From contig NZ_CALPDB010000001.1 in NCBI RefSeq assembly GCF_943193155.1, positions 310,001 through 374,000 on the forward strand: DNA of 64,000 bases, given 5' to 3'. This document shows, in pieces, positions 29,565-51,237 of this stretch. The notes below the pieces were generated by a model. That model ran no database searches, had not been told where the DNA came from, and saw nothing but the letters and a program-made list of their open reading frames with translations. The DNA is from Veillonella intestinalis (GTDB lineage Bacteria > Bacillota > Negativicutes > Veillonellales > Veillonellaceae). The position numbers and the translations under genes are program-made. The stretch's first letter is position 1, and each line of letters opens with the position of its first letter.

Positions 29565-30248
29565 CTAAATATGATCGCGAATAAGTCCGATTACCTTACC
29601 TTCAATAACACAATTATCAGTATAAATTGGCTCAAAATCGCTATTTTCTGGTTGTAAACGAATACGATTACTTTCGCGATAGAACCGTTTAACAGTAGCT
29701 TCATCATCAATGCGAGCAACTACAATATCACCATTATTAGCAGTCGATTGATTGCGAACAATTAATAAATCCCCTTCGTATATACCAATATCACGCATAG
29801 ACTCACCACGAACACGAAGTAAGAAACATTCAGAGTTACCAATGAGTGTCATAGGTAATGGAATTTGAGCTTCTTGATTTTGATAAGCTGTTACGGGTAA
29901 ACCGGCTTGGACAGTCCCAATCAGTGGTACATTTTTCAATTTCATATCCATAAAATCAAAGGCATCAGAAGAGGTAACTTGACCATCTGTAGATGTGTTA
30001 ACTTCAGGAATAACTTTTGGCTTCATACCAACGACCGTAATAGAACGGTTTTTATTTACATCCCGTTTAATATAGCCAAAACGTTCTAATGTATTTAAGT
30101 GGCTTTGAACAGTAGAGGTGGAGCTTAGGCCCATATGATTGCAAATTTCACGTACACTAGGGCAACGATATTCTGTCTGTAGGGATTCAGTAATAAAATC
30201 TAGAATCTTTTGTTGTTTGGAGTTAATATCGGTAGCTGGACGTCTCAC
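29565..30248 (-). CDS. lexA: SOS repressor LexA
   Basis: A 227-residue repressor/self-cleaving peptidase. The N-terminal winged helix spans about residues 8-62 (CPSVREICNHMGLSSTSTVQ). The cleavage bond is A115-G116 in GTVQAGLPVT, the catalytic serine S150 in VRGESMRDIG and the lysine K187 in DDEATVKRF. GTG 30248 follows GAGAGG by eight to nine bases. Divergent from the yneA-like gene with LexA boxes between, so it is predicted to repress itself. Confidence 0.96.
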   Translation of the reverse strand: MRRPATDINSKQQKILDFITESLQTEYRCPSVREICNHMGLSSTSTVQSHLNTLERFGYIKRDVNKNRSITVVGMKPKVIPEVNTSTDGQVTSSDAFDFMDMKLKNVPLIGTVQAGLPVTAYQNQEAQIPLPMTLIGNSECFLLRVRGESMRDIGIYEGDLLIVRNQSTANNGDIVVARIDDEATVKRFYRESNRIRLQPENSDFEPIYTDNCVIEGKVIGLIRDHI

Positions 30249-30306
30249 TGTTAAAACCTCTCATTCTGTAGTAAAAAGTTGCAAATATATAAATAATCTC
30301 ATCATT

Positions 30307-30347
30307 ATTATAGAACGTAAGGTAAAGTTTTGTCAAATAATTGTTCG
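30307..30347 (-). promoter_or_regulatory. lexA promoter with overlapping LexA box
   Basis: On the minus strand, consensus TTGACA (30336-30331) and TATAAT (30312-30307) are 18 bp apart. CGAACAATTATTTG (30347-30334) overlaps the -35 and matches the Gram-positive CGAAC-N4-GTTCG box at 8 of 10 positions. Confidence 0.75.
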
Positions 30348-30355
30348 ATTAAGTA

Positions 30356-30385
30356 TTGACCGAACATTTATTCGTGTGGTATACT
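30356..30385 (+). promoter_or_regulatory. yneA-like gene promoter with embedded LexA box
   Basis: TTGACC (30356-30361), 18-bp spacer, TATACT (30380-30385). CGAACATTTATTCG (30361-30374) lies in the spacer and matches CGAAC-N4-GTTCG at 9 of 10 positions, ideal for repression. Confidence 0.8.
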
Positions 30386-30409
30386 AATTTCATAAACGAA
30401 CATACATAC

Positions 30410-30423
30410 CGTTGAAATGTTCG
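30410..30423. promoter_or_regulatory. Second, weaker LexA-like box
   Basis: CGTTGAAATGTTCG has a perfect right half (GTTCG) and a 3-of-5 match in its left half (CGTTG for CGAAC). It lies in the leader of the yneA-like gene. Confidence 0.5.
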
Positions 30424-30499
30424 TAAGTATTGCTCTTATTTTAGATAATAATACATGTATGTTAGGGGCCTGGGATTAGTTTATTAATGAGGTGATAGT

Positions 30500-30814
30500 A
30501 TGAAACGTGATTTTTTAATCGTTTTCAGCATGTTTTTAACATTAACAATGGGTTATTTTATTAATACACCGACTATTGAATTAGATACACAAAATGTTCG
30601 TACTGTAACTGTTAAAGCTGGCGATACTGTTTGGGGTATTGCGACTGAACACAGCAATAGCAACATCGATGTGCGTGAAATGGTTCATGTCGTAAAATCA
30701 CTGAATCAGTTGGATGAAAGAGCTAATTTAGAACCTGGTAGCCAAATTAAAGTGCCAACTATTAAAACACCAAATCATAAATTACCTGTTGATTATTTAG
30801 CACAGAATGAATAA
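30500..30814 (+). CDS. yneA: LysM-domain membrane protein, probable SOS cell-division inhibitor (YneA-like)
   Basis: A 104-residue protein with one N-terminal membrane segment (LIVFSMFLTLTMGYFI) and an extracytoplasmic LysM domain (about residues 34-86, VTVKAGDTVWGIATEHS to LEPGSQIKVP). Size, topology and divergent placement beside lexA are those of YneA, which delays division during the SOS response. LexA boxes at its promoter support this. YneA orthologues diverge strongly, so the name is by architecture and context. GAGGTGAT precedes ATG 30500. Confidence 0.8.
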   Translation: MKRDFLIVFSMFLTLTMGYFINTPTIELDTQNVRTVTVKAGDTVWGIATEHSNSNIDVREMVHVVKSLNQLDERANLEPGSQIKVPTIKTPNHKLPVDYLAQNE

Positions 30815-30874
30815 AGTAATAGATCCACTATGAGTTATTTTACTCTAGGGTTTATATAGACAATTGAATACAAT

Positions 30875-30913
30875 AAAACGGTGATACTTAGGCGGCTAGG
30901 TATCACCGTTTTT
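30875..30913. terminator. Bidirectional terminator between convergent genes
   Basis: AAAACGGTGATAC (30875-30887) pairs with GTATCACCGTTTT (30900-30912), followed by T. It separates the rightward yneA-like gene from the leftward recombinase gene and marks the point where the two gene blocks converge. Confidence 0.9.
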
Positions 30914-30951
30914 CTATTGTTACTATATAGTATTGATTCTATAGAAATATG

Positions 30952-31950
30952 TTAGCGTTTTCTACTACCAAATATAGTACTAATTGGGTTATCGACAAAT
31001 TTATTGGCTTCATTAATATATCTTCGTACCATATTGACACTATGATGGCGAGTTTGGCGCATAATATTACGTTCTTCTACACCATAAGTAGCTGCTGTTG
31101 TAGCAAAACCATGACGTAGGCTATGGGCTCCATACATAGCCGGGTCTAAACCAATAAGGGAAATATATTTTTTTACTATATCAGCAATACTTTTATCACT
31201 TAATGCATTCTTACGAATGTCCATTTTTTTCGTAAAACCTCTAAAAATTGGACCACTTTTAATACCAGTATACCGGAGCCATGCCTTAACGGCCCTTACA
31301 GCGCAAAATTCAGCGTTTTCTATATAAGGGATAGCTACAACGGCTCCTTGACCTTCTTGGTCGGCTTTTGAAGAGCGTATAAACACTTCTAAGCCTTGTG
31401 GAGAGAAGGTAAGGTCCTCTACAGTTAAAGCACTAATTTCACTTCGTCTAAAAGCACCCATAAAGCCGATTAATAGAATAGCTTTATCTCGTAGTAGTTG
31501 AATCTCTGGTAAGCCAAGAGAATCCATTTCTTGAAAAATATCTTCTAAATCTTCTAGTAGAATAGGAGTTTTACCTTGTTGATAGGTTCCTTTAGCACGA
31601 CGAATGCCACGCAAAGCCTGACTGACTAGCGAAGATTTACAAGGATTATCCGATATACCAGAAGCATTAAAGTTTTCAGAAATAGCACTAATGCGGCGAG
31701 ATATGGTATTAGCTTTGGCATGATCAGCTAAGTCATTAATATAGTTAACAATGGTTTCAGGGGTAGCCGGAAAAAATGAAACGTGCCGAGATTCACACCA
31801 ATATACAAAATCATCCCAATCTGACTCATACGCATCAACTGTATTTTCAGATTTAGATAAGAGAATGCTTTGTTTAGCTTTTTCAGAGAGTTTGCTGCTA
31901 GCCTTGAGGATTTCATTGTCTCGTAAGTAAAAATGCTTGTTAGCGCTCAT
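30952..31950 (-). CDS. Cre-like solo tyrosine recombinase
   Basis: A 332-residue tyrosine recombinase. The N-terminal core-binding domain covers about residues 30-120 (NTVDAYESDWDDFVYWC, TISRRISAISENF). The catalytic domain keeps all six active residues: R168 in GAFRRSE, K195 in SSKADQEG, H276 and R279 in HSLRHGF, H302 in TRHHSVNMVRR and nucleophile Y311. The long N-terminal region and the phrases LRGIRRAKG and MVRRYI resemble the Cre-like solo group more than XerC/XerD (about 300 residues). AAGGAG precedes ATG 31950. No phage, transposon or integron gene adjoins it. A palindromic candidate target site lies about 115 bp upstream. Confidence 0.9.
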   Translation of the reverse strand: MSANKHFYLRDNEILKASSKLSEKAKQSILLSKSENTVDAYESDWDDFVYWCESRHVSFFPATPETIVNYINDLADHAKANTISRRISAISENFNASGISDNPCKSSLVSQALRGIRRAKGTYQQGKTPILLEDLEDIFQEMDSLGLPEIQLLRDKAILLIGFMGAFRRSEISALTVEDLTFSPQGLEVFIRSSKADQEGQGAVVAIPYIENAEFCAVRAVKAWLRYTGIKSGPIFRGFTKKMDIRKNALSDKSIADIVKKYISLIGLDPAMYGAHSLRHGFATTAATYGVEERNIMRQTRHHSVNMVRRYINEANKFVDNPISTIFGSRKR

Positions 31951-32063
31951 AATAGGAAACTCCTTATAATACGATAAAATTCCAAGATAGTATAATAGTA
32001 TATAATAGTTGTAAAATACGAATAAACCTTGATATTGCTTAATTCATTGTAAAATAACCTAAA

Positions 32064-32100
32064 AATTACTTCCGATAATATATCGTTATCGGAAGTAATT
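32064..32100. other. Candidate dif/lox-like recombination site
   Basis: AATTACTTCCGATAA (32064-32078) and TTATCGGAAGTAATT (32086-32100) form a perfect 15-bp inverted repeat around TATATCG. It resembles a recombinase site more than a terminator because neither flank has a clear T-run. From memory, the left arm plus spacer matches the B. subtilis dif start (ACTTCC, then a TA-rich core), and the arms also recall loxP (ATAACTTCG). Upstream of the tyrosine recombinase gene and near the orientation switch. Confidence 0.6.
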
Positions 32101-32153
32101 ATATCATAAAGCTAAAAAGAGTTCAATAATAAGCTCTAAGCTATTACCTATAT

Positions 32154-32185
32154 AAATAGCCCTCGACATGTATCGAAGGCTATTT
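32154..32185. terminator. Hairpin after the FAD/Fe-S dehydrogenase gene
   Basis: AAATAGCC (32154-32161) pairs with GGCTATTT (32178-32185), with inner TCGA/TCGA pairing. It probably ends the leftward dehydrogenase transcript, although the T-rich tail is better on the plus strand. Confidence 0.65.
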
Positions 32186-32204
32186 TTTATGAATTGTTCA
32201 AATT

Positions 32205-35024
32205 TTATTTTCTTGTAGAACAACGGTCTAATAAGTAAGCAATACTTACAAATGGAATACCGCCATTTTCACCAAGACCAATTTCACAAGTGGAACTGGA
32301 ACTTACACCTAAAGTGCAACCATATTTTTTAACTTCATCAGCTAAATCTTTAGTGGCACATTTATTAAGTTCTGGTGTAAAGAAACCTTTTTGACCAGCA
32401 AAACCATCACAAGCAAATGATTTAATATTGAATACTTTATCTGTACATGCACGAGCTAAATTTTCAATATAATCGCCTTTGTTTAATGTTTTAATTTTAC
32501 ATTGTTTGTGGACAATTACTGATTCATTGCATTTAGTTACATTTAGGTTTGGTAAAATTGTATACAAGAATTCAGAAATATCAAGGATTTTTAAGCCTTT
32601 AATGTGTTTAAATGCATGGTTAAAGCAAGCGGAATGGTCAATAACGACTGGATAAACGCCACCTTCACTAGCTTTCATTAAAGAAGCTGTTAAATCTGCT
32701 AACGCTTGTTTATCAATTTCTTCATAATTTTCAAAACTTAGGCCACAGCAAAGATTTTCAATATGTGGTGGATAAATTACATTATAACCGGCTTTATCAC
32801 ATAAACTTTCAAATACTTGTTGTAAGCTACGAGTATCATCATAGCCTTGATTTTGGCGGAATGCACGGTTAGCACAAGTACTGAAATATACTACATTCTT
32901 CTGGAATAATGGATTCCGTTTATTGCTCAATTTATAAGTATTAGCCTTAGGCATTGTTTTTGGTAAATAAGGTGTTAAGCCAGTTAATTGATGGGCATCT
33001 TCTGAAATCTTAGCTAATAAAGTTTTAGTAGCTACTTTTCCTGCTACCCCACCTAAGGTTACCCCTACTCTAGCCGCTTTTAAAGTCGTGCTAAAGTTAT
33101 TATAAATAGCTTGCGCCAAACTACGTCCTTTAGGATCAATTTTACGCATAGAAATAGCAATCTGAGCTGTATCAATCCCTAATGGGCAAAGTTGTGAACA
33201 CATAGAGCAAGCAGCACAAGTGTCTACACCATAATATTCATAGCCTTTTTTAAGCTCCGCTGCCATTTCAGTGTTGCCTTCTTTAAGCAAGCGTTGTTCT
33301 TCGCGAAGTAAAGAAATGCGTTGACGTGGTGTTAAGGTTAAATTACGACTTGGACAGTTCTTTTCACAGAAGCCACATTCCATACACATATTGTATAGTG
33401 GATCAATATCATTCATGGCTTTTAGATTTTTCTTATAAACGTCTGGGTTATCAGTAATAATAACATCTGGGTTTAGTAGACGTAGTGGGTCAAAGATTTC
33501 TTTAATGCGACGGTTAACAGCATATGCTTTTTTACCCCACTCTAATTCTACGAATGGTGCTACCATGCGACCTGTACCATGTTCAGCTTTAATAGAGCCT
33601 TCTACGCCAGCTACTCGTTCTGCCATTTCTTTAACAAGACCAGCAAAGTTGTCCATTTCTTTTTGTTCATTAAAGTTAGGTGTAATGATAAAGTGAACAT
33701 TACCACTTAAAGCATGACCGAAGATAATACCACTATCTACAAAATCATATTTGTGGAATAATTCAGTAATCATTTCGATACCGTCAGTAAAGTCTTCAAT
33801 TTTGAAGCATACGTCTTCTGTAATAACAGTTGTACCAGGACGACGAAGACCAGCTGCAATTGGTAATAAACCTTTACGAATCATCCACCAGGAGTTATAT
33901 TCAGCTGCATCTTTGGAATATAAACTTGGGATTACAGTTGGAATATCTTTTAAATGTTCTTTGATATATTCTAAGTTTTGATCTAATGTAGCTTCGTCAT
34001 TGCTTTCAGATTGGAATAAAATACAGCTAGTGCCTTCAGGTACACCGCGTACAAATGATGGCACTTCTGGCAATTGCTGTACACTTTTTAGACTTAAATA
34101 GTCCATCATTTCAGCAGCTACTACCTTTTCACGAGACATATTAGCTAAGGCAACTACTGCGCGAGATGCATCATTTAATTTTTCAAAGAATAAGAGACCA
34201 CAGCCTTTGTATTTAGCGTCTTCTACGCAATTATATGTAACTTCACTAACAAAGCCTAATGTACCTTCACTACCGATAAATAAATGGTTTAAAATGTCTA
34301 CTATATTTTCAAAATCAACTAATGAGTTAATACCATAGCCAGTTGTATTTTTGATTTTATATTTACGGTTAATTAAATCTACTAATTCTTGATCAGCCAT
34401 GATTTGACTACGTAGGTTAAGAATATCTTCAATCATCTTACCATGAGTACGCATGAAGTCATTAACGCTTTGCGCATCACCGGTATCAAGAATAGTACCG
34501 TCGGCTAGCACGACGCGCATAGAACGAACTGTTTTATAGGAGTTTTGAGCAGTACCGCAACACATACCGCTGGAGTTATTATTAAAAATCCCCCCTACTA
34601 AGGCTGTAGTAATTGTAGCTGGATCCGGCCCAATTTTTTTACCATAAGGAAGTAAAGCTTCATTAGCATCAGCCCCAATTACGCCACAGGCTAAGCGAAT
34701 TGCATTGCCGTTTTCTAATACATGAGCATATTTGAACCCGTCATTAGCTACGATTAATACATCTTCAGATGAGCATTGCCCTGATAAGGAACTACCTGCA
34801 GCGCGGAAAGTAACAGGTGTGCCACAGCGATTAGCTAACAAAACTAATTGTACTACTTCTGCTTCCGTATTTGGTTTTACTACTACTTTTGGCAAATAGC
34901 TATAACACGATGCATCTATGCCATAAGCATAACGTAATAAATAATCTGTAAAAACACGATCTGGTGAAATCTTTTTGGCTTCTGATACAAAGGTATCAAA
35001 ATCACGTTTCAAATATAAGCTCAT
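32205..35024 (-). CDS. FAD- and [4Fe-4S]-containing oxidoreductase, probable D-lactate dehydrogenase
   Basis: A 939-residue fusion protein. The N-terminal PCMH-type FAD domain (about 40-270) contains PVTFRAAGSSLSGQC. An FAD-linked oxidase C-terminal domain follows to about 530, with HALSGNVHFIITPNF and GSIKAEHGTGRM. Next are two ferredoxin clusters, CMECGFCEKNCP and CAACSMCSQLCP, and a cysteine-rich C-terminal half with ENLCCGLSFENYEE. This is the GlcD-GlcF-like fusion of D-lactate/glycolate dehydrogenases. D-lactate is the likely substrate in a lactate fermenter; substrate is inferred. AGGAGGT precedes ATG 35024. Confidence 0.85.
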   Translation of the reverse strand: MSLYLKRDFDTFVSEAKKISPDRVFTDYLLRYAYGIDASCYSYLPKVVVKPNTEAEVVQLVLLANRCGTPVTFRAAGSSLSGQCSSEDVLIVANDGFKYAHVLENGNAIRLACGVIGADANEALLPYGKKIGPDPATITTALVGGIFNNNSSGMCCGTAQNSYKTVRSMRVVLADGTILDTGDAQSVNDFMRTHGKMIEDILNLRSQIMADQELVDLINRKYKIKNTTGYGINSLVDFENIVDILNHLFIGSEGTLGFVSEVTYNCVEDAKYKGCGLLFFEKLNDASRAVVALANMSREKVVAAEMMDYLSLKSVQQLPEVPSFVRGVPEGTSCILFQSESNDEATLDQNLEYIKEHLKDIPTVIPSLYSKDAAEYNSWWMIRKGLLPIAAGLRRPGTTVITEDVCFKIEDFTDGIEMITELFHKYDFVDSGIIFGHALSGNVHFIITPNFNEQKEMDNFAGLVKEMAERVAGVEGSIKAEHGTGRMVAPFVELEWGKKAYAVNRRIKEIFDPLRLLNPDVIITDNPDVYKKNLKAMNDIDPLYNMCMECGFCEKNCPSRNLTLTPRQRISLLREEQRLLKEGNTEMAAELKKGYEYYGVDTCAACSMCSQLCPLGIDTAQIAISMRKIDPKGRSLAQAIYNNFSTTLKAARVGVTLGGVAGKVATKTLLAKISEDAHQLTGLTPYLPKTMPKANTYKLSNKRNPLFQKNVVYFSTCANRAFRQNQGYDDTRSLQQVFESLCDKAGYNVIYPPHIENLCCGLSFENYEEIDKQALADLTASLMKASEGGVYPVVIDHSACFNHAFKHIKGLKILDISEFLYTILPNLNVTKCNESVIVHKQCKIKTLNKGDYIENLARACTDKVFNIKSFACDGFAGQKGFFTPELNKCATKDLADEVKKYGCTLGVSSSSTCEIGLGENGGIPFVSIAYLLDRCSTRK

Positions 35025-44106: not shown

Positions 44107-44138
44107 AAAATACCCACATCAATTGATGTGGGTATTTT
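44107..44138. terminator. Terminator after groEL
   Basis: AAAATACCCACATCAA (44107-44122) and TTGATGTGGGTATTTT (44123-44138) are a perfect 16-bp palindrome with A/T-rich flanks; it ends the leftward groESL transcript. Confidence 0.92.
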
Positions 44139-50747: not shown

Positions 50748-51237
50748 ATTGTCCTCCTATTGTTATAAGTTCATCTTGTGTAAGTTCTGATGTCTGCCAA
50801 ATGCTCTCTCTACTGCCATCTGGTTGCGCCATTAAGGTAATCCATAATACTTCTAAGGGCAATGCATCAGGGAATTTATCAGCCCATTCTACCAAACTTA
50901 AGGTATCTTCAGTAAATTCACCAAAACCAATATTTTCTAATTCATACACATCATCTAAACGGTACACATCAAAATGATATAAAGTGCCGGCTTCTGTTTC
51001 ATATGTATTCATTAATGCAAAGGTTGGGCTTGTTACTTCATCAGTTACACCAAAACCACGAGCTACGCCTTGTGAAAAATGAGTTTTGCCCGTACCTAAA
51101 TCACCAACTAAAGCAATACAAAGGGGCTTATTATATGTTTTTAAAAAAGTACCTAATTGATACCCTAATTGTTCCGTATCGCTAACAGTATTAGTATTAC
51201 AATGTAGGACTTGAGTATCTTTAGTCGTATTTATCAT
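50731..51237 (-). CDS. tsaE: t6A biosynthesis ATPase TsaE
   Basis: A 168-residue P-loop ATPase. ALVGDLGTGKTHFSQGVARG is the Walker A; TSPTFALMNTYE and LYHFDVYRLDDVYELENIG follow, then LVEWADKFPDALP. ATG 51237 is preferred over ATG 51246 because the AAAGGAG site is only two bases from the latter. Needed for turnover of the TsaBD complex. Confidence 0.95.
   Translation of the reverse strand: MINTTKDTQVLHCNTNTVSDTEQLGYQLGTFLKTYNKPLCIALVGDLGTGKTHFSQGVARGFGVTDEVTSPTFALMNTYETEAGTLYHFDVYRLDDVYELENIGFGEFTEDTLSLVEWADKFPDALPLEVLWITLMAQPDGSRESIWQTSELTQDELITIGGQYVSGH

Follow-up and report, generated by a model that had tools for sequence, protein, structure and literature searches.

A candidate chromosomal dif site and its single Cre-like tyrosine recombinase in Veillonella intestinalis and related Negativicutes

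Introduction

In the 64,000-nucleotide stretch of Veillonella intestinalis DNA analysed here (the window), a perfect palindrome lies just upstream of a gene for a tyrosine recombinase, which raises the question of whether the two are the site and the enzyme of a chromosome dimer resolution system. To our knowledge, dimer resolution is near-universal in bacteria with circular chromosomes. Most bacteria carry it out with a pair of recombinases, XerC and XerD. According to the available part of a published account, XerS/difSL of streptococci and lactococci and XerH/difH of epsilon-proteobacteria instead use one recombinase, often encoded beside its site, with the site near the terminus (PMC5357621). 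An earlier note on the window, made from its letters alone, had proposed that the palindrome is the chromosomal site of the adjacent recombinase. Here we follow up that proposal across the class Negativicutes.

Results

The palindrome occupies 32064..32100 (no strand assigned) and reads AATTACTTCCGATAA-TATATCG-TTATCGGAAGTAATT, two perfect inverted 15-bp arms around an asymmetric 7-bp spacer, exactly as the earlier note had described it. The arm at 32064..32078 is the inferred binding site of one recombinase monomer, the spacer at 32079..32085 is the inferred strand-exchange region that gives the site its direction, and the second arm lies at 32086..32100, none of them with an assigned strand. 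A conserved core, ACTTCCGATAA-N7-TTATCGGAAGT, lies within the site at 32068-32096. From the site to the ATG of the recombinase gene we measured 113 bp, where about 115 bp had been estimated. A perfect palindrome with arms of 15 and a spacer of at most 10 occurred in 0 of 300 first-order Markov windows; by the same criteria the real window holds the 32064-32100 palindrome and one overlapping pair at 44107-44138, itself a further perfect palindrome with 15-bp arms. Within the whole genome assembly (2,033,391 bases, 13 contigs), the palindrome is the sole match at up to 3 mismatches.

The recombinase gene (30952..31950, minus strand) encodes a single Cre/Xer-like tyrosine recombinase of 332 aa, inferred to be the cognate enzyme of the site, with a Phage_integrase domain and an N-terminal SAM-like domain. 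It is complete, as first thought: the frame is intact and the putative catalytic residues do not vary, R168/R169, K195, H276, R279, H302 and Y311 being invariant across 41 alignment rows. Their catalytic role is assigned by analogy with the family. The description of the enzyme as solo stands among Xer-type enzymes: the genome has 2 Phage_integrase matches, and the XerD model finds only this protein in it (50.9 bits against a cut-off of 329.6). Against curated XerC, XerD, XerS and archaeal XerA models the recombinase scored 52.2, 54.5, 45.8 and 59.1 bits and passed none of the cut-offs of 335.15, 329.6, 267 and 220 bits; the XerC model was run on the window recombinase only.

Two conserved neighbours accompany the gene, one for a yneA-like LysM protein (30500..30814, plus strand; 57.5 bits, just below the NCBIfam cut-off of 60) and lexA (29565..30248, minus strand). 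A survey of this neighbourhood, equivalent to 29565-31950 of the window, covered loci L081-L111, L126 and L128 (also L127 and L132). The recombinase gene adjoins yneA in 32/33 Veillonellales loci and lexA in 30/33, the three loci without lexA not having been checked singly for contig ends, and the same neighbourhood recurs in two Sporomusaceae-like loci. The inferred dimer-resolution enzyme is thus placed beside the SOS regulator lexA and the SOS division inhibitor yneA.

Alignment of the intergenic gap across 6 of 7 genus genomes (V. seminalis, G003, was left out as its site is interrupted) showed the palindrome conserved while the rest of the gap drifts, with 40 consecutive invariant columns, TATAATTACTTCCGATAACGATATATTATCGGAAGTAATT, covering the site in an alignment of 61% mean column identity. 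Absence of the palindrome from close relatives that keep the recombinase would have refuted the proposal, and the relatives keep both. More widely, the core lies upstream of the gene with 0-2 mismatches in 29 of 52 named loci (L081-L132); nine more have a diverged palindrome in the same layout (L104, L110, L112-L116, L127 and L129, those of L112-L115 and L127 being imperfect), L081 and L111 retain a half site, and 12 show none, all within the stretches fetched. Arm changes come in pairs: ACTTCC/GGAAGT and AGTTCC/GGAACT, with GGTTCC/GGAACC in a Dialister, AATAAC/GTTATT in Negativicoccus and ACTAGT/ACTAGT in Sporomusa sp. KB1, while the inner GATAA/TTATC is unchanged across these variants. Spacers change little among members of a genus for the most part, and vary by family (CGATATA, CGTTAAA, CATTAAA, CTATAAA, GTATAAA). 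In Sporomusa sp. KB1 the diverged site, ACTAGTGATAA-N7-TTATCACTAGT, stands 44 bp before the recombinase gene, which is located at 0.549 from dnaA. The palindrome thus fits the description of a short site of ~28-31 bp, with two arms and a spacer, usually present once per chromosome.

The recombinase was found in 57 of 60 genomes sampled around the window genome and in 52 of the 53 of good quality. The three exceptions are G054 (75% complete), G057 (83%) and G016, which is 99% complete and has no recombinase, site or lexA; its sister G012 holds lexA, site and recombinase within one 2.5-kb block, and because lexA is also absent from G016, a missing assembly block and a deletion are both possible. 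Across the class, 130/300 genomes have the recombinase (E<=1e-30) and 119/300 pass the XerD cut-off, 0 of them in the order Veillonellales. Nine genomes of the order have XerD-model matches at E<=1e-30, the best at 3.9e-45, against matches of about 1e-100 or better in genomes above the cut-off. Six genomes of the order (G015, G020, G035, G042, G044, G050) have one Phage_integrase match in total (E<=0.001), and each has the recombinase. The order therefore meets the definition of a single-recombinase system, one chromosomal recombinase and no canonical XerD.

Outside the order that definition fails in 25 of 72 recombinase-positive genomes, which are also above the XerD cut-off, so the recombinase need not be the sole resolution system there. 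Eleven of these 25 have only a divergent recombinase (<332 bits); the other 14 have a high-scoring one, and 7 of the 14 have the site. G154, G166 and G181 are examples with XerD above the cut-off together with the recombinase. The remaining 47 positives lack such a XerD, and 45 of them belong to one family (f14), presumed to be Selenomonadaceae, as its rows cluster with Schwartzia in the sequence tree. Many members of this family without the recombinase (G104, G112, G140, G188 and others) have one sub-cut-off XerD-like match near E 1e-35, perhaps another single-recombinase system.

Site and recombinase occur together. The core arms, at up to 3 mismatches, were found in 98 of 130 recombinase-positive and 5 of 50 recombinase-negative class genomes (Fisher P 4e-16, uncorrected for kinship), and a reversed control pattern matched in 7/180 of the same genomes; 27 of the negatives were hand-picked, mostly from two families, and were not random. 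In the order alone the counts are 51/58 and 0/3. The 32 positives without a site at 3 mismatches comprise 7 of 58 in the order and 25 of 72 outside, and 11 of the latter 25 have a divergent enzyme (<332 bits). Negativicoccus and Sporomusa loci carry a diverged palindrome; the other siteless positives are unexplained. The five recombinase-negative genomes with a site are G061, G082, G084, G110 and G137. In G061, G082 and G084 the core site is perfect and no recombinase was detected, nor any in the stretches around the site; incomplete assemblies may explain some of these.

Whether the palindrome is single-copy depends on the genome. It is so in its own genome and in 56/61 and 25/42 site-bearing genomes, and elsewhere there are extra copies (5/61 and 17/42, up to six in G200); these proportions indicate that extra copies are common in one family. 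Several extra sites with differing spacers occur in G200, G254, G230 and G005, and the two extra ones of G005 each have an integrase gene in the same stretch. Such sites are possibly mobile elements with spacer variants of their own.

Taking dnaA as the origin marker (GC skew was not used), we found the site at 0.476-0.576 of the chromosome from dnaA in 16/16 assemblies, and at 0.476-0.522 in 15 of them. Six of 22 genomes were excluded from this placement: the window genome, whose dnaA is on another of its 13 contigs, and G029, G064, G083, G087 and G181, which have no site at <=3 mismatches. For G001, G031 and G039, with 5, 6 and 2 contigs, we treated the contig that carries both dnaA and the site as a closed chromosome. 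The diverged palindrome of G029 (Negativicoccus) would fall at 0.526. Gene and site are linked in the window genus and many others, and are apart in G039, G134, G161 and G182, by 102, 167, 224 and 241 kb; in each of these the site is closer than the gene to the half-way point (0.5). The terminus position has been kept though the gene moved, which argues against an operator or a chance palindrome, and it is the strongest argument for dif function. The spacer has no fixed polarity relative to dnaA: it points one way in 11/16 assemblies and the opposite way in 5, with both orientations inside Veillonella, which is what a symmetric site would be expected to show.

Mobile elements enter the site. 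An insert of 40.4 kb in G048 has the full site at one end (contig position 51037) and a half site at the other (91439), and the two share a 20-bp direct repeat, CATTAAATTATCGGAAGTAA; an integrase-domain match at 90785-91321 lies within the insert next to the half site, and the chromosomal recombinase lies close by on the outer side of the half site. In V. seminalis one contig keeps the window gene order up to the FAD-oxidase gene and the site with one mismatch, and another has a half site and an integrase open frame of 179 aa ahead of the chromosomal recombinase; by inference, each contig carries one end of a single insert. The viral contig L148 starts at the site with the V. atypica spacer, and its phage integrase gene ends on the site. 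A blastn search of phage records, with the site as query, gave 7 weak matches. Known dif sites are likewise exploited by IMEX elements, as the available parts of two reports describe (PMC9765430, PMC5357621).

Other phage copies have different surroundings. On the phage contigs L144 (site 6133) and L145 (site 5209) the site lies ~30 bp upstream of a terminase small subunit-like gene, scanned in L144 only, and no recombinase-profile match was found in the stretch available for either; these are possible phages that borrow the host recombinase. On the viral contigs L141 (3937-3965) and L143 (1158-1186) it lies ~40 bp upstream of a recombinase of the broader group, at 128 bits to the profile.

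The affinities of the enzyme point away from XerC and XerD. Its best sequence matches in the PDB were an archaeal Xer (1.9e-8), Cre (2.2e-8) and XerD (6.2e-7). With an AlphaFold model of the recombinase (pLDDT 83), the first 32 Foldseek rows were all Cre or Cre variants, followed by archaeal Xer, lambda Int and XerH; VIA-align gave the predicted structure Z values of ~20 for Cre, 17 for archaeal Xer and 16 for XerH, with rmsd values of 17-20 A that probably reflect a different hinging of the two domains. By its nearest solved structures the protein would have a Cre-type fold. XerH was compared only as a solved structure. In a 50-row tree, the 23 chromosomal Negativicutes rows form one group (90/95), nine XerC/XerD rows form a separate clade (100/100) that does not include the recombinase, and the plasmid recombinases, four divergent class rows (L189-L192) and a Proteobacteria-labelled MAG row (L129) fall outside both. 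Cre is a very long branch with fork support of 49/90, and the deep forks are weak; the gene tree broadly tracks host families. On these alignments the recombinase appears to lie outside the XerC/XerD clade and to belong with a mainly plasmid-borne, Cre-like group, as far as weak deep forks allow.

A tblastn search of a plasmid collection returned the closest relatives, at up to 48.8% identity; matches in the phage records listed are all at <30% identity. The plasmid relatives, annotated as site-specific integrases (Alicyclobacillus, Paenibacillus, Niallia and others; 39-49% identity for those named), differ from the chromosomal enzyme studied here in being on plasmids. Three have a site of the same design near the recombinase gene: TGATGTCCGATAA-GTGATTG-TTATCGGACATCA on pAACI01, 854 bp upstream; ACTTCCGATAATTTAACGTTATCAGAAGT on the A. 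dauci plasmid, 21 bp before the annotated start; and ACTTCCGATAATATATAGTTATCGGAAGT on pMEGANia, adjoining the open frame of a 308-bit relative. No such site was found in the flanks fetched for the plasmid relatives L150, L151, L152 and L154. Remoter relatives on Rhizobium, Shinella, Xanthomonas and Komagataeibacter plasmids (50-216 bits, where XerC/XerD rows score 45-57 bits) have similar palindromes nearby. The blastn E-values of plasmid site matches are mostly near or >0.1, so only sites beside a recombinase carry weight. Among the eight such matches fetched, L160, L161 and L163 had no good recombinase of this group beside the site (L160 only 26.5 bits), and the L161 match was set aside, as it is not a palindrome of this design. 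RinQ of Rhizobium was likewise dropped as a tyrosine-recombinase relative: the available part of PMC10194956 places it in the invertase/resolvase family, and there calls another rhizobial plasmid recombinase Cre-like.

The palindrome could instead be an operator only, at which the recombinase or another dimeric protein controls the recombinase promoter. A sigma-70-like promoter into the gene does overlap it (32098..32126, minus strand; TTGAAC at 32126-32121, 17 nt, TATAAT at 32103-32098), with the TATAAT on the palindrome end and within the 40 invariant columns, so that transcription would start inside the site. The promoter is a consensus match only, with 3 in the region against 2.7 expected in shuffles, and the gene is not always close by: gene and site are 2.3 kb apart in eight named loci of Veillonella proper and 3.7 kb apart in L090, and the four genomes with separations of 102-241 kb still have it at the terminus. 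We regard an operator alone as highly improbable. Expression control may be an added effect in the window genus, where binding of the recombinase may also repress its own gene, a guess from the consensus match. We give still less credence, indeed almost none, to the reading that the palindrome gives the upstream FAD-oxidase transcript its intrinsic terminator or an RNA hairpin. The earlier note held that neither flank looks like a terminator, which is only partly right: on the minus strand the palindrome is scored as terminator-like by a consensus scan, owing to the TTT behind it, and as RNA its 37 nt reach -16.8 kcal/mol (z -6.5), a stability to be expected of any palindrome of this kind. The upstream gene has a 14-bp hairpin of its own at 32154-32185, directly after its stop, not itself flagged by the scan. 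The same letters recur in other genera, families and gene contexts, the T-run is missing after some copies (L004, L023, L029), the palindrome is single-copy in its own genome, and a scan of 30800-32400 found no Rfam family at gathering score.

That gene and site are a fixed mobile-element remnant or a DNA-inversion switch with no chromosomal role finds some support in the plasmid "integrases" that are the closest relatives outside the class, and in the inserts and extra copies found in some genomes. We nevertheless consider it very unlikely: the gene is near-universal and single-copy in the order and its tree broadly follows the host families, the site keeps to the terminus, no canonical XerD is present in the order, and the window genome has no second copy within 3 mismatches. 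Operator, terminator and remnant are each rejected as sole explanations. A different question is whether dimers are resolved without FtsK. Cre resolves P1 plasmid dimers, and archaeal XerA has been reported to be FtsK-independent. The Cre-like fold, the plasmid kin, the symmetric arms and the unfixed site polarity would suit such a reaction, while the strict terminus position suggests control by segregation, and the FtsK gamma domain was found in 33/33 sampled genomes, a finding that is only permissive for FtsK dependence as FtsK has other roles. We hold FtsK independence to be possible, and doubtful on present evidence.

Discussion

We conclude, with a probability of about 0.88, that 32064-32100 is a chromosomal dif site and that the gene at 30952-31950 encodes its single recombinase, although there are no binding or recombination data. 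The computed support is a conserved pair of gene and site, their co-occurrence, the terminus position, compensating arm changes, the lack of a canonical XerD in the order and insertion of mobile elements at the site; the proposed pairing of palindrome and adjacent gene is supported. Binding, cut positions, dimer resolution and FtsK control are inferred, without bench data. In the inferred mechanism, one recombinase monomer would sit on each arm and the two sites of a dimeric chromosome would pair as a tetramer. Y311 would then cut at the edges of the 7-bp spacer and strands would be exchanged, so that two monomers are present before division. With identical arms, only the spacer would set site polarity. 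FtsK, encoded in these genomes with its gamma domain, would probably gather the sites and switch the reaction on at the septum.

The system appears to work like XerS/difSL and XerH/difH without membership of the XerC/XerD family, on the model and tree tests. It resembles both in its one recombinase, gene-site linkage, terminus site and, by inference, dimer resolution. It differs in its mostly perfect inverted arms, 7-bp spacer and gene-site gap of up to 241 kb, and its recombinase scores 45.8 against 267 bits on the XerS model. XerL/dif of Legionellales, in the available part of its description, has a single recombinase missed by homology searches, a palindromic site and an inserted mobile element (PMC9765430); it shares all of these with the system here, in another phylum, the XerL sequence not having been compared.

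Likeness to Cre/loxP lies in two identical arms for one enzyme, an asymmetric spacer and the top structural matches. The impression that the arms recall loxP held up, with 10/13 letters alike to the P1 lox arm and 11/13 for G008 (best of 9 offsets), and may be more than recall. The spacer of loxP is 8 bp, and that between the conserved arms here is 7. Identity to Cre is only about 22-25%, and the recombinase here is chromosomal and vertically inherited. Nigri/nox and Panto/pox, as far as the accessible part of PMC4957104 goes, also pair Cre-like recombinases with lox-like sites.

No such module in Negativicutes was known to the earlier note, and we found no description of a Negativicutes or Veillonella dif or Xer system in the open-licence literature, judged by titles, which does not exclude a prior one. 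In the parts of the sources available, neither Veillonella nor Negativicutes appears in Kono 2011 (PMC3025954), PMC9765430 or PMC5357621, nor Negativicutes in PMC8138268, and literature matched by the arm letters concerned, from its titles, other subjects only.

The enzyme's nearest kin outside the class sit on plasmids, so the chromosome may have adopted a resolution module of the plasmid Cre/lox type. We lean somewhat towards a history in which such a module entered the chromosome in an ancestor of much of Negativicutes, first beside XerCD and then replacing it (in the sampled Veillonellales and in 45 genomes of the Selenomonadaceae-like family), with the core arms and their N7 spacer still in use on plasmids and mobile elements of several phyla. 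The direction from plasmid to chromosome is a guess, because the deep forks are weak and the Cre branch very long.

If the main reading is true, a whole order of common gut and mouth bacteria resolves chromosome dimers by a different enzyme, which would explain the failure of XerC and XerD models there and would add a chromosomal system with a symmetric site as a natural relative of Cre/lox. Genomes with both systems would be an apparent intermediate state in which to study the replacement of one resolution system by another, and the site would be an insertion spot for mobile elements in these bacteria. The complete chromosome of V. parvula SKV38 carries both recombinase and site, which makes the system testable. 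If the plasmid origin also proves true, chromosomal dif systems can arise from plasmid resolution systems, and Cre/lox would have a living chromosomal counterpart.
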